Below are positions 7,098 through 14,301 of a stretch of 32,826 nucleotides of DNA, one piece after another. The DNA comes from Hyphomicrobiales bacterium (lineage in GTDB: Bacteria; Pseudomonadota; Alphaproteobacteria; JAPOUT01), in assembly GCA_026708545.1 (NCBI GenBank), contig JAPOUT010000044.1, forward strand, positions 1-32,826, given 5' to 3'. The notes beneath the pieces are model-generated. The model saw only the letters and a program-made list of their open reading frames with translations, had not been told where the DNA came from and did not search any database. Every line of letters starts with the position of its first letter. The stretch's first letter is position 1. The position numbers were made by a program, and so were the translations under genes.

Positions 7098-8345
7098 TCA
7101 TCTTTTAAAATGTCGTTGAACTTTAGTCCCGTAAAAAGCCCACACTAACGCGACCAATTGCATGACAACAATGCATGCTATGGCAGTCTGGTGAGCTACA
7201 GCGGGATATGTGCCTATTTTAACGGGTTGCCATAAGTCCAGTATAAACCCTACGCCGTATTGCAAACAAAAACCTGCCAACGTGGCAAAAAGATTTAGAA
7301 TGCTCACGGCACGTCCGGCCACGCCTGTTGGCAGAGCGTTTGAAAGAAGGGCATACGTGATAATGGACCCCGATACACAAAACCCGAACAAACCCCATAA
7401 ATAAGGGGAAATGTTTTCCATGTTCATCAAAATAAATACCTGCACCAAAATGTAAACGAAGCAAATAACCAGCGAAATGTTCACCCTCGAATAACCTTTT
7501 TCACCCAAACGGTCCGTAACAGCACCCAGAATGAAATTTCCCGAAATAACACAAACCGCCAACAACAAGAGGAAGGCGGCCGCCTCCGCAGAAGGCAATT
7601 GGTCCACTTGGCGCAACCACTCGCCCGCCCACAATCCTTGATACGACAGCCACACGCCCTGGCAAACAATCGAGAGAGGAGCAATCCAAACGAATACATG
7701 GTTTTTAAAAACAACGGAGTATCCTTTTATCTCATCAAACAAATTTTTAGGTGTGTTGTGGATATCGTCTTCATGGTCGGGTGCAACCAAATAAACATAG
7801 GCGGCAATGCATGCCGTAAAACCCGAAAGCCCTTGAAACAGCTCCTGCCATGTAATAAAGGACAGAATATATTGGGTGGGCAGCGTGGAGCAGAGTGCCC
7901 CGATGCCCGCAAAACTAATAATCGCTCCGTTGGCAAACGCCAATTTGTTTTTAGGCCACCATTGCGCGTTCACTTTGAAAGCCGCCGTCCAACAGCCGGC
8001 CATGCCCAAACCCAGCAGGAAGCGTCCCGCGCCCATTAATGTAAAAGTACCGAATGAAAACAAGAATGCTCCCACAGCACCCACCAAAAGCAATACGGAT
8101 ATCGTGCGGCGTGCACCATAACGATCAAGACAAATACCAACGAATAATTGCGATCCCGCGATCGATATAAAAAACAAACTTGTTAGGAAGCCCAATTCCG
8201 TGGCACTTAACTGCAACTCCCTTCCAATATTTTCCCCTATTACACCGTTAATGTTTCTAAACAGCTCCGACAGGAAATAGGCAGCCATAAAAGGAATAAA
8301 AACATTAATGATTATGTAAACGGCATTATGCTTGTTTTTCACCAC
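7098..8345 (-). CDS. MFS transporter
   Basis: This 415-residue membrane protein has about twelve hydrophobic segments. The MFS motif A-like loop after TM2 is GICLDRYGARRTI, with a related loop GAVTDRLGEKGYSR in the second half. The N-terminal half also shows GRFLLGLGMAGCWTAAFK. Segment WWPKNKLAFANG resembles motifs in nitrate, oxalate or hexuronate transporter relatives, but the substrate cannot be assigned. The start is GTG (8345) or the next GTG (8342), with AGGGA upstream. Codon use is more A/T-rich than in the neighbouring genes. It stands alone between the CckA-like gene and the sugar operon, on the same strand as both. Confidence 0.88.
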   Translation of the reverse strand: MVKNKHNAVYIIINVFIPFMAAYFLSELFRNINGVIGENIGRELQLSATELGFLTSLFFISIAGSQLFVGICLDRYGARRTISVLLLVGAVGAFLFSFGTFTLMGAGRFLLGLGMAGCWTAAFKVNAQWWPKNKLAFANGAIISFAGIGALCSTLPTQYILSFITWQELFQGLSGFTACIAAYVYLVAPDHEDDIHNTPKNLFDEIKGYSVVFKNHVFVWIAPLSIVCQGVWLSYQGLWAGEWLRQVDQLPSAEAAAFLLLLAVCVISGNFILGAVTDRLGEKGYSRVNISLVICFVYILVQVFILMNMENISPYLWGLFGFCVSGSIITYALLSNALPTGVAGRAVSILNLFATLAGFCLQYGVGFILDLWQPVKIGTYPAVAHQTAIACIVVMQLVALVWAFYGTKVQRHFKR

Positions 8346-8431
8346 ACCAAAATTCCCTGACTGGCAATACGTTGTAAATAAGGGTTTAAATTATTTCGCG
8401 ATAACATTTAAAGCACGCAAACCTCTATCTA

Positions 8432-9625
8432 TCAACCGATTTCGAGCGTCTGCTCGATGCGCGTTATGAGTTGCTTGAGACTGAAGGGTTTTGCGAGAAA
8501 TTCAACCCTGTTTCCGTTCTCGAGAACTTCGCGAAATTTACCGGACTCGTATCCGGACATGAACAGCACACGAATGCCGGGATGGGTTTTGCACAACCGC
8601 ATCGCCAATTGCGGTCCGTCGATTCCGGGCATGATGACATCGGAAAGCAGCAACGCGATTTTCCTTGCATCGGGGTTTTTTTCCAGCAGTTGTAGAGCCT
8701 CCTCGGCGCTTGCGGCCTGGGACACGAAAAAGCCTCGGCGTTGCAGCGCTCGAACCGCAAAGCGTCTCACGCCCTCTTCGTCCTCAACAACAAGAATGTG
8801 GTGCGGCCGTTTCGATGCAAGATTTGCGGGGACGGGGGTTTCAAAGTTTTCAAAACCAACGGATGCGTCTGCGTTTATGTTCGCGGAACCGTTCGCCACA
8901 AACCTCGGCAGATAGACTCGAAAGGTCGAACCTTGTCCGGGCGTGCTTTCAGGGAGAATGAACCCGCCGGATTGCCGGACAATCCCAAGCACGGTTGCAA
9001 GTCCCAGGCCGACTCCCCGCCCCCGTTCCTTGGTGGAAAAGAAAGGCTCAAAAATCCGCTGCATGTTTTCGCGTGAAATCCCGCTGCCGGTGTCACTGAC
9101 TTTGCAGAGCACATATTCGCCGGCGGGCAGGGCATCATCATGCGCATCAATGCGAACATTGCCGGCATGGATGGCAACGTCTCCGCCGTTCGGCATAGCA
9201 TCTCGGGCATTGACGGCGAGGTTGACGATGACCTGTTCGAATTGATTGATATCAGCACGCACGGGCCAAAGATCATCCTGACAATGCACTTGAAGTGTTA
9301 CTTTTTCGCCGAGCAAATGTCGTAACAGATTTCCCAAGTCTGCAAGCACATCGACCAATGAGACTTCTTGCGGCTGAATGGATTGCTGCCGGGAAAACGC
9401 AAGCAGTTGCTGCACGAGTGCGGCTGCGCGTTTGGAGTTGCGGCGGATTTCCTCGACCTCGTCATTGTCGGTTCGTTGGAGCGTCCTGTTTTGCAAAAGC
9501 AAATCGCAAGAGCCGATGATTGCGGTTAGGAGATTTGAGAAGTCGTGGGCAATGCCTCCGGCGAGTTGTCCGATAGCCTGCATTTTTTGTGCTTGTGCGG
9601 ATTTCTCGTCGTGGCGTTCCGGCAT
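8432..9625 (-). CDS. CckA-like hybrid histidine kinase core, sensor region missing
   Basis: This 397-residue protein has three domains. A HisKA dimerisation domain carries the phospho-accepting His in GGIAHDFSNLLTAIIG, near residue 27. The HATPase has an N-box VNLAVNARDAMPNGG and G-boxes DTGSGI and GVGLGLATVLGIV. A C-terminal receiver has LLLSDVIMPGIDG and KPFSLKQL. The order and wording match CckA, the alphaproteobacterial kinase that phosphorylates ChpT and through it CtrA and CpdR. Full CckA is roughly 700-850 residues, with two N-terminal membrane segments and PAS domains. Here the protein begins at MPERHDEKSAQAQKMQ, immediately before the H-box, and upstream DNA is ahcY. It would be cytoplasmic and sensorless. 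Its ATG lies five bases after the ahcY stop, so it is probably translationally coupled. Whether a full CckA exists elsewhere is unknown. Confidence 0.85.
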   Translation of the reverse strand: MPERHDEKSAQAQKMQAIGQLAGGIAHDFSNLLTAIIGSCDLLLQNRTLQRTDNDEVEEIRRNSKRAAALVQQLLAFSRQQSIQPQEVSLVDVLADLGNLLRHLLGEKVTLQVHCQDDLWPVRADINQFEQVIVNLAVNARDAMPNGGDVAIHAGNVRIDAHDDALPAGEYVLCKVSDTGSGISRENMQRIFEPFFSTKERGRGVGLGLATVLGIVRQSGGFILPESTPGQGSTFRVYLPRFVANGSANINADASVGFENFETPVPANLASKRPHHILVVEDEEGVRRFAVRALQRRGFFVSQAASAEEALQLLEKNPDARKIALLLSDVIMPGIDGPQLAMRLCKTHPGIRVLFMSGYESGKFREVLENGNRVEFLAKPFSLKQLITRIEQTLEIG

Positions 9626-9630
9626 GCGCG

Positions 9631-11499
<1,869 letters not shown>

Positions 11500-14301
11500 T
11501 TATTGCGGCGAATCGCCGCCGTTTTGTTTTGGCTGCAGGAAATCGCGGGTTCGAGTAACGGCGTCTTTGAGAGTGAGGGATTCGGGCACGACATCTACAG
11601 GAAAGGCTTCACGAAATCTTGAAGAAAGATTTCCGAGCAGAATGAAAATACCTTTATCGCCTTCGGCCCGAATGAGTCGTCCGAAGGCTTGGCGCAAACG
11701 GAATCGTACGAGCATGTTATCGTAAGCCGATCCGCCGAAACGTTTGCGGCGTGCTTTGTGGAGAACATCACTTCTCGCAAACGGAATTTTGTCGAGAACA
11801 ACGATGCGAAGCGAGCGCCCGGGCACATCAACGCCGTCGCGCATAGCATCGCAGCCGAGCAGACAGCTGGATTCGATGGTTCGGAAAATATTCATGAGAG
11901 TAGCGGTATCCATGGCATCGACATGTTGTGCAAAGAGATTGATGCCTTTGTCTTGGAGTCGGGAAGCGATGCGCGGATGAGCTTGCTGAAGTCTTCTGAC
12001 GGCAGTGAAAAGTCCGAGTCCTCCGCCTCCGGCAGCGAGGAAAAGTTGGCTGTATGCGTTTGCGACGGCGGTGTCGTCTTTGTGGTCGATATCACTGACG
12101 GTAAAAATTTTGGCCTGTTGCGAATAGTTGAAAGGCGAGTTGATGGAGAATCGTTTCGGCGGGGATGCAAGGTGCACCGCGCCGGTTCGCATTTCCGCGA
12201 TTTTCCAGTCAAAATCGTTTTCGCTTGCATTGTCAGCACTCATCTCGGAATTGGAATCGTGAAGGGTTGCCGATGTGATGAGGGCGCCTTGTGAGGGTTC
12301 GAGCAACTGCCGCGCAAAAGGTTCGGTCGGATCAATCCAATGTCTGTGCATGCCGATATCGATGATTCGCCCCTGGTTACGTTCGATGGAGAAGAGATCG
12401 AGGAATTTATTTTCGGTGTTTTCTTGCGGGACGATGGGATTTTCGAGCATCTTGCACCACTGCGACAGTTGCGTGACAGAGTTTCGGTGGATGTTACTAA
12501 CGAGAGTCTCGATGCTTTGGCCGTTATCATCGTTACCGGCGGCGGCGTCGGCCTTTGCGAGTTGTTCGCAAAGTTGCTCGAGAAGGCTTTGCAAAAACTT
12601 CATCTCTCCCCCTAAATCCGCTGCACTCTCGAGCAAGGATTCGGGAAGGTCAACGCAGGGGATATCAATGCTGTAGAAGTCGCTCTGTTCGTTCCGGTTT
12701 CCCTCAATGGTTGCTTGTTTGACTTCGCTGAGAAAGGTTTCACCCTCGGTTTTGGGCCCTTCCTTTTCGAGATTTTTGCGCCATTCGGGGCTCGCGAGCG
12801 TACGCGCTTGCGTCGAGATTTCCGCAAGCAGTTGTTCGATGTCTTCGTTTATGTGTTTCAGGATGTCAAAAACGCGCGCGCGCAATCCCCGCACCTTTGC
12901 CCGGCTTCGACGCGACGATGTACCGACGAGCCAATGGCGTAACCGCACCATTTCCAAACCTGAACAATGCGACGAAAAGACTCCGTCGGAAACATCGAAA
13001 AGGTGTTGCGCCTCATCAAAGATGAATCGCGGCGGGAATTCCGCGCCGGGTTTTTCATACTTTTCTTTATCCACCATGTCGGTTTGCGAGCGCGCCAGAC
13101 GCGTCATAACGAGGGCGTGATTAGCGAGCACGAAAGGAGCCTGGCGTGCGCGTCTTGCGATGGACTCGGCAAAACATTTTCGATAATGCGGACACGACGC
13201 ATGGGTGCATTCCCGGTTCTTGTCTCGAATATCATCAATGGGGTTGTTCCTATCACTCATCAACCAGTTCGGAAAGTCTCCTCCGTCGAGTGCGCCGTCG
13301 GCGGTTTGCGCCGCCCATCGTGCAATCAGTCCCGCCTGGACCATTTGCGTCGTATCCAGCGACGCGTGGCCCAACCACTCTTCCAGCCGCAACAAACAGA
13401 GATAGTTGCTTCGACCTTTGCGCAGGACGACTTCGTTTCTTTGCTCGTATTCGTTGGTGAAAAGAAGACGGGTTTCCCTTTGCAGCTGGGCTTGCAGGTT
13501 TTTGGTGTACGTGGAAACCCACACTTGCGCCCGGCTTCGACGCGCCCAGACATCCGCACCGGAGAGATAGCCGAGCGTCTTGCCGATGCCCGTTCCCGCT
13601 TCCGCAAGGACGATTTGCGCGGGATCGTGCTCCTGGCGCGGCGCGAACGCTTTGGCGACGCCTTCGGCATATTCGAACTGCCCGTTCCTGGGCGAGCGTT
13701 GATTTTTTGCGAGCAGTTGCTCGAGACGCCCGCTTGCTTCACCGTCTTTAATTTGATGGGTTTCCTCGGCGTTTCGCGCCGGAACTTCTTTCCATTCGGG
13801 CAGGGCGTTCCAGACATGCAGGGGATTGTGTGACATTTCCGGAACCCCGGGGTTGCCGAGAGCTTCAAGAATGCTTTCGCCCCAAATCCACCCCGCATCG
13901 TTCATGACGTGAGCAATGGCAACGCAGGAGTCCGACACCGACACCCCGGCGAGACATTTGAGCAATTCGCCCGCGCCTTGATAAAGAAAGGACGCCGATG
14001 CTGTCGCGTCTCGCGGCGGGGACATCCCCAACGCCTGCGCCAGACCTTCGGGGGACGGCGCGCAGAATCGTGCGGGAAAAACGAAGGCAAAGAGTTCCAA
14101 GACATCGGCGCTTTGTCGATGGAGATTTATTTTTTCGAAGTGCTTGCGGATGCTCGGCTTGTGGCAAAGGATGTGCGGTTCGCGCTCGAGTTGTTCACGT
14201 GCGGCGTCAAGTTCGAGAGTTTGGATTTCGCCCTGAGTTGTGATTTGGACGGCGCCGCTTGTATTGAGAATGATGGCGGGAAGATCTGGGAGGGATATCA
14301 T
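11500..14301 (-). CDS. DinG/Rad3-like (XPD family) ATP-dependent DNA helicase
   Basis: This 933-residue superfamily 2 helicase is of the iron-sulfur XPD/DinG type. Walker A is AEAGTGIGKTLGYL, near residue 235. The four cysteines expected for a 4Fe-4S cluster are in NYLCLL and in CTHASCPHYRKCF. The DEAH-box variant is FDEAQHL. The C-terminal helicase domain includes LLGCDAMRDGVDVPG and the motif VI-like RQAFGRLIRAEGDKG. An N-terminal extension of about 230 residues precedes the helicase core, as in the long alphaproteobacterial DinG-like helicases. It probably unwinds damaged or structured DNA such as R-loops. It lies 129 bases upstream of the receiver-AhcY frame and 57 bases downstream of the Gfo/Idh/MocA gene, all on the minus strand. 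Confidence 0.9.
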   Translation of the reverse strand: MISLPDLPAIILNTSGAVQITTQGEIQTLELDAAREQLEREPHILCHKPSIRKHFEKINLHRQSADVLELFAFVFPARFCAPSPEGLAQALGMSPPRDATASASFLYQGAGELLKCLAGVSVSDSCVAIAHVMNDAGWIWGESILEALGNPGVPEMSHNPLHVWNALPEWKEVPARNAEETHQIKDGEASGRLEQLLAKNQRSPRNGQFEYAEGVAKAFAPRQEHDPAQIVLAEAGTGIGKTLGYLSGADVWARRSRAQVWVSTYTKNLQAQLQRETRLLFTNEYEQRNEVVLRKGRSNYLCLLRLEEWLGHASLDTTQMVQAGLIARWAAQTADGALDGGDFPNWLMSDRNNPIDDIRDKNRECTHASCPHYRKCFAESIARRARQAPFVLANHALVMTRLARSQTDMVDKEKYEKPGAEFPPRFIFDEAQHLFDVSDGVFSSHCSGLEMVRLRHWLVGTSSRRSRAKVRGLRARVFDILKHINEDIEQLLAEISTQARTLASPEWRKNLEKEGPKTEGETFLSEVKQATIEGNRNEQSDFYSIDIPCVDLPESLLESAADLGGEMKFLQSLLEQLCEQLAKADAAAGNDDNGQSIETLVSNIHRNSVTQLSQWCKMLENPIVPQENTENKFLDLFSIERNQGRIIDIGMHRHWIDPTEPFARQLLEPSQGALITSATLHDSNSEMSADNASENDFDWKIAEMRTGAVHLASPPKRFSINSPFNYSQQAKIFTVSDIDHKDDTAVANAYSQLFLAAGGGGLGLFTAVRRLQQAHPRIASRLQDKGINLFAQHVDAMDTATLMNIFRTIESSCLLGCDAMRDGVDVPGRSLRIVVLDKIPFARSDVLHKARRKRFGGSAYDNMLVRFRLRQAFGRLIRAEGDKGIFILLGNLSSRFREAFPVDVVPESLTLKDAVTRTRDFLQPKQNGGDSPQ

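Follow-up and report, generated by a model that had tools for sequence, protein, structure and literature searches.

In Alphaproteobacteria, CckA stands at the top of the CtrA circuit. How PAS domains, c-di-GMP and DivL control it is a textbook example. In Caulobacter, the kinase is switched by polar crowding acting through PAS-A, by c-di-GMP acting through PAS-B, and by DivL together with DivK. The window analyzed here, a stretch of 32,826 nucleotides from a Hyphomicrobiales bacterium (contig JAPOUT010000044.1), carries a CckA-like gene that encodes catalytic domains without a sensor and begins directly behind ahcY, and the question is what this gene is and how it could work. The reading that we favor on comparative grounds, at a probability of roughly 0.6, is that it represents the only CckA of its genus, pared down to the catalytic core and moved to the place of divL in a collapsed chvI-...-ahcY-divL cluster. 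A circuit usually ruled by membrane and messenger signals seems in this organism to run without its known inputs. The gene and its parts are located as follows:

8432..9625, minus strand: CckA catalytic core, whole gene (complete open reading frame with ATG start, 397 aa; grouped with the CckAs in the tree; congener copy 85% identical)
9380..9571, minus strand: HisKA/DHp domain (PF00512 match; residues 19-82 in Pfam)
9547-9545, minus strand: codon of the phospho-acceptor His27 (codon checked; DxxN phosphatase motif intact, with Asp28 and Asn31)
8906..9253, minus strand: HATPase_c domain (Pfam, residues 125-240)
8989-8987, minus strand: codon of Leu213, which aligns to the c-di-GMP residue Tyr514 of other CckAs
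8453..8797, minus strand: C-terminal receiver of CckA (PF00072 match; Response_reg, residues 277-391; phospho-acceptor Asp329 and Lys379 conserved)
9626..9630, minus strand: five-base gap CGCGC between ahcY (stop TAG at 9633-9631) and cckA (ATG at 9625), equal in length in the congener

HisKA, HATPase_c and Response_reg are the sole domains that Pfam recognizes in the 397-residue frame, with no PAS domain among them. Against NCBIfam's Brucella-type CckA model, the protein scores 470.7 bits, and the match spans only the C-terminal half of the model (positions 469-868 of 868). As the score lies below the whole-protein equivalog cut-off of 1000 bits, with the C-terminal 400 of 868 positions present, the protein is termed here a CckA core and not a canonical CckA. 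A hydrophobicity scan found no membrane helix: the Kyte-Doolittle maximum over 19 residues is 1.37, with the peak inside the ATPase domain, compared with 2.37 for the full-length CckA of another genome of the set (G012). The catalytic features are intact in the alignment, including His27, the DxxN motif, the N and G boxes of the ATP-binding site, and Asp329 and Lys379 of the receiver. The nearest solved structures are the DHp-CA bimodule 5idj (191 bits), the CA domain 5idm and the receiver 6tne, and the chain of 5idj starts at about the first residue of the natural core. An AlphaFold model of moderate confidence (mean pLDDT 71.4, pTM 0.46) shows the receiver, the ATPase domain and two long DHp helices that begin at residue 3. 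A first-pass annotation of this DNA had proposed a cytosolic CckA-like kinase devoid of membrane, PAS or other sensor regions, starting five bases past the ahcY stop; the domain searches, the half-length NCBIfam match, the hydrophobicity scan and the stop and start positions all agree with that description. Together they support a cytosolic, sensor-free core set for translation coupled with ahcY. The further proposal that the kinase is constitutive, or tied to methionine-cycle gene expression, may hold as well.

The kinship of the core was assessed in a tree of 63 kinase cores, in which several outgroup branches are long and the bootstraps, by the tool's own note, had not settled. The window protein groups with its counterpart in the congener (100/100), then with the CckA of a genome of the same order, G002 (97/88), inside the CckA clade (100/98), and the kinases found beside ahcY in other genomes fall separately. 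Sequence identity is about 50% to CckA cores versus 27-32% to the ahcY-side kinases. The gene is thus supported as a CckA core, and a kinase native to the ahcY locus is rejected by tree and identity alike. Closer kinship to kinases that sit by ahcY in relatives, which the first-pass annotation had named as the observation that would count against it, was not seen; those neighbors are DivLs.

Much of the surrounding circuit is missing. The window genome (G000) is a draft metagenome-assembled genome (MAG) with 139 contigs totaling 2.26 Mb and a completeness of 90.8%, and was compared with that of a congener (G001, locus L039; JAPOUU010000006.1, Hyphomicrobiales bacterium CLI1_bin_4), likewise a draft MAG, 93% complete. 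HisKA matches in the window genome comprise an NtrY-like kinase, the CckA core, two regulator-paired kinases (C50 and C121), ChpT and an orphan kinase, C16; the HATPase matches agree with this inventory and add non-kinases. There are seven receivers: NtrX-like, a receiver fused to AhcY, C25, C121, CtrA (C59), C50 and that of CckA itself. In neither assembly did these inventories contain DivL-, PleC- or DivJ-like kinases (HisKA and HATPase) or a free-standing receiver comparable to DivK or CpdR. GGDEF proteins number zero in G000, G001 and G003, two in G002 and 11 in G012. The output side of the pathway, for which a search had been advised, is retained. ChpT is present (PF10090 above cut-off; dN/dS 0.20) and is divergent, its full-length NCBIfam match of 141 bits lying below the cut-off of 240, and CtrA exceeds its curated cut-off (359.7 bits against 350; dN/dS 0.12); purifying selection acts on both. 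CtrA-like sites in the window are not above chance (four found versus 8.7 expected), and no sigma-70-like promoter was found in 8300-11700. Elsewhere in the order, G002 has CckA and CtrA (54% identity) and no ChpT match, and G003 has a ChpT match and neither a CckA nor a clear CtrA, a patchy pattern of CtrA phosphorelay loss. G002 also has a GMP synthase gene (L083:3596-4102) with about ten tandem 51-base units (95% matches) lying in frame between its two halves.

The position equivalent to Tyr514, numbered from the alignment to 5idj with what we take to be His322 of Caulobacter CckA as anchor, is Leu in both congeners and Tyr in all 31 other distinct sequences of the CckA clade. One study reports impaired c-di-GMP binding when Tyr514 of Caulobacter CckA is changed to Asp (PMC5189948). 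The apparent losses of the messenger, of Tyr514 and of the PAS domains fit together.

The gene upstream of the core is itself altered, with these parts:

9631..11370, minus strand: receiver-AhcY fusion open reading frame (579 aa from ATG 11370; 602 aa from TTG 11439; 578 aa in the congener)
11032..11361, minus strand: ChvI-type receiver of the fusion (PF00072 match; DNA-binding half missing)
10924..11004, minus strand: linker, residues 146-172 of the 602-aa frame (holds ahcY's own ATG at 10929-10927 and AAGGAAG at 10940-10934)
9634..10923, minus strand: AhcY (S-adenosylhomocysteine hydrolase) part (TIGR00936 637.9 bits, cut-off 497.6; dN/dS 0.039)

The receiver that had been annotated at 11370-10930 is real, but it is not a separate gene; it runs in frame with ahcY, with no stop, over 579 codons from ATG 11370. 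Its best matches outside the genus are ChvIs, 54-62% identical (61% to the ChvI of L140), and Trans_reg_C, the C-terminal DNA-binding domain of ChvI, was not found by Pfam in the fusion frame. The receiver is under strong purifying selection between the two congeners (dN/dS 0.070) and keeps its phosphorylation residues, and its first, kinase-contacting helix is unlike that of all six aligned ChvIs. The linker differs from both flanks: its protein sequence is unconstrained (dN/dS 1.13 on 26 codons), and its synonymous sites are unusually conserved (divergence 0.13, against 0.46 in the adjoining coding sequence; P about 0.006). The motif AAGGAAG-TTTT-ATG within it constitutes ahcY's own start, so free AhcY is probably made alongside the fusion. 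Among the matches listed for 385 genomes of the class, the fusion occurs in the two congeners only, and no report of a receiver fused to adenosylhomocysteinase was found in the literature searched, a body of work from which subscription journals are mostly absent. Its AlphaFold model is of low confidence (pLDDT 63.6, pTM 0.48, 14 sequences). Arguably, this fusion is odder than the CckA core itself.

Of the competing explanations, the one that survives best is that the two neighbors have been rewired into a pair, the CckA core acting mainly with receiver-AhcY, either by phosphorylating it and so controlling S-adenosylhomocysteine (SAH) hydrolysis or by being inhibited by it. We regard this as unlikely. 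The five-base adjacency recurs in both congeners, and the receiver has stayed conserved in its phosphorylation residues despite the loss of the DNA-binding half, with a first helix of its own. Furthermore, there is no chvG at the locus, so that by elimination the free kinases are CckA and C16, of which C16 may pair with the C25 regulator. There is also a precedent (PMC9430884): in Rhodobacter sphaeroides, DivK has been lost, DivL is reduced to a PAS domain, and CckA is inhibited by Osp, a receiver-like protein that binds the transmitter domain of the kinase. However, conservation extends to both ChpT and CtrA, and the original output is therefore probably still used; ahcY also has a start of its own inside the fusion, and the free enzyme is probably made as well. 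The most developed form of the idea, a new two-gene circuit in which the core and receiver-AhcY act on each other and set SAH clearance and the CtrA phosphorelay together, with receiver-AhcY either replacing DivL/DivK as regulator of CckA or serving as its second, enzymatic output, is similarly doubtful. Were the pair real, methylation capacity would be tied to the CtrA circuit. SAH inhibits methyltransferases and is removed by AhcY, and a DNA methylase gene (PF01555) adjoins recA in the window genome; on these grounds a link to methylation is an attractive conjecture.

It is improbable that a second, full-length CckA is missing from both drafts and that the core is an accessory paralogue. The genomes are drafts, and at 90.8% and 93% completeness such a gene could be missing; the search for it that the first-pass annotation had called for returned none in either assembly. 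However, the absence holds in two independently assembled species, and the site where the gene would be expected is assembled in both. In G002 and G012, cckA immediately precedes recA. In the window genome and the congener, no cckA stands beside recA; the stretch of 2.4 kb that leads up to recA can be aligned between them and carries other genes, presumably SmpB- and uracil-DNA-glycosylase-like. A search for a cckA remnant at this locus found none. On the favored reading, cckA has therefore left its old place and lost its 5ʹ half.

Still less probable is that the gene is a decaying, non-functional cckA fragment that landed behind ahcY, as a truncated gene in a lineage with much of the pathway lost might suggest. 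The congener has the same 397-residue cckA, 85% identical, in the equal place behind the same five-base gap and a likewise fused ahcY. Between the two species, the overall dN/dS of the core is 0.107 at a dS of about 0.8, with values of 0.065 for the DHp domain (residues 10-83), 0.064 for the ATPase domain and 0.117 for the receiver (residues 274-397); the linker before the receiver is the only loose part (0.51). A frame kept open over this divergence, with dN/dS of 0.06-0.12 in three domains and intact catalytic residues, argues against decay; the core is under purifying selection and is thus taken to be functional and to have existed in its present form for a long time. A frameshift or assembly error is rejected, since gene, gap and fusion recur in a second, independently assembled species. 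As had been anticipated, ahcY occupies the upstream DNA, so no N-terminal half of CckA can be hidden in another frame. A gene split between loci is rejected as well: a full-length CckA query (G012, 867 aa) gave no match to its N-terminal half in G000 or G001.

The position behind ahcY has a usual occupant. Of the 23 genomes searched outside the genus, 19 contributed their ahcY loci to a comparison, leaving out three with weak matches (G008, G009 and G057; best E 2.5e-18, 2.5e-15 and 8.3e-16) and one contig fragment (G035). By tblastn, ChvI precedes ahcY in 10 of the 19 loci, DivL follows it in 11 (one, L139, cut by a contig end), and eight have both. NCBIfam offers no DivL model for these kinases, and they were recognized as DivL by the structure match of one (L133; 192 bits to 4q20, next 147), by Tyr in place of the phospho-acceptor His in six of the seven examined (L121 has His), and by the published Brucella gene order. 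The latter (PMC9491525) is a bvrR-bvrS-hprK-...-ahcY-...-divL arrangement in Brucella abortus described as one operon. In the window, the cluster is reduced to the ChvI receiver-AhcY fusion with the CckA core directly after ahcY, a DivL-like position, and chvG was not found at the locus by tblastn. Receiver-AhcY is accordingly best read as a remnant of a chvI-chvG-hprK-ahcY cluster. That the core might be a shortened DivL, as this slot would imply given DivL behind ahcY in the 11 loci and the B. abortus operon, is refuted by its His in place of Tyr, its C-terminal receiver, its tree position and its sequence, which is closer to CckAs (about 50% identity) than to the ahcY-side kinases (27-32%).

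How a lone CckA core could work can be proposed from what is known of PAS-deleted CckA. Mann et al. describe CckA without PAS-A and PAS-B as kinase-active in solution and inactive on liposomes (PMC4853435); in the same study, no Caulobacter strain with the double-PAS deletion as its sole copy could be obtained. With no membrane anchor in the natural core, inactivity on liposomes ceases to be an obstacle, and a soluble kinase/phosphatase is therefore proposed. Given the five-base gap, the core and receiver-AhcY would be made together by coupled translation. The core would then act as a soluble, cytosolic autokinase that hands phosphate to its own receiver, from there to ChpT and finally to CtrA, and would remove phosphate when ATP or flux falls. 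With the known Caulobacter switches gone, output would depend on how much of the protein is present, on ATP and on the load of the phosphorelay itself, possibly also on the neighboring receiver-AhcY. Since the double-PAS deletion was not obtained as the sole copy in Caulobacter, a lone sensorless CckA would need a changed circuit. If this account is right, a natural lineage appears to live with the CckA core only, and the sensor, DivL, the stand-alone receivers, c-di-GMP and Tyr514 would be jointly dispensable. The core would also offer biochemistry a soluble, natural CckA, and the receiver-AhcY next door raises the question of whether SAH metabolism is a new input or output of the circuit.

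Sensor reduction of CckA has precedents in the class, as frames of two other genomes (G017 and G049) indicate. CckA-like matches at E up to 1e-90 occur in 202 of 385 genomes, of which the best 150 were examined. Among these 150, frames shorter than 450 aa belong to the two genus members only; the next shortest are of 455 and 473 aa, both cut by contig ends, and of 476 aa, with a FlgB-like start and possibly chimeric. Contig ends truncate the short frames of G224 and G179, and in G381 (L203:3133-4561) a FlgB-like N-terminus continues in frame into a CckA core immediately ahead of the phospho-acceptor His, in either a chimeric contig or a real fusion. The CckA of G002 (512 aa) has no membrane helix, and that of G017 (548 aa) has one PAS-like region and no membrane helix. 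The CckA of G049 (L205:1154-2543), from another family and outside the 150, is a 463-aa frame that has one hydrophobic segment and leaves no space for a PAS domain, which looks like a half-way stage of sensor loss. Unlike the core, the reduced CckAs of G002, G017 and G049 each keep a PAS-like region or a membrane segment. In the comparison with these short frames (G224, G179, G381, G017 and G049), loss of membrane and PAS regions together was seen in this genus only. In the literature searched, with subscription journals mostly outside it, no report was found of a natural CckA without a sensor or of full sensor loss with a move to the divL slot.

Set against known systems, the core resembles the CckA of Caulobacter and Brucella (NF046026, NF046020; 5idj, 5idm, 6tne) in its HisKA-HATPase-receiver order, in about 50% core identity and in its catalytic residues. 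It differs in having no membrane helix, PAS-A or PAS-B and in having Leu for Tyr514; moreover, it adjoins ahcY, not recA, and DivL and GGDEF partners were not found in the genome. The PAS-A/PAS-B-deleted laboratory CckA, described in PMC4853435 as active in solution, is like the core in lacking PAS sensors. However, Caulobacter with that construct as its only CckA was not obtained, and the core is natural and apparently the only CckA. With DivL (4q20) the core shares the gene slot after ahcY and the histidine-kinase superfamily, but DivL is a pseudokinase (Tyr for His in 6/7) with PAS domains, a membrane anchor and no receiver. The Osp system offers a parallel (PMC9430884), with a receiver as possible CckA regulator where DivK is lost and DivL reduced. 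Osp, however, is a single-domain protein; the receiver here is ChvI-derived and fused to AhcY, and an interaction with CckA is only proposed. The CckA of Wolbachia (PMC4426382) has like the core lost part of the sensor. By these comparisons, the CckA locus is best regarded as a known system in reduced form, not as a system of a new kind.
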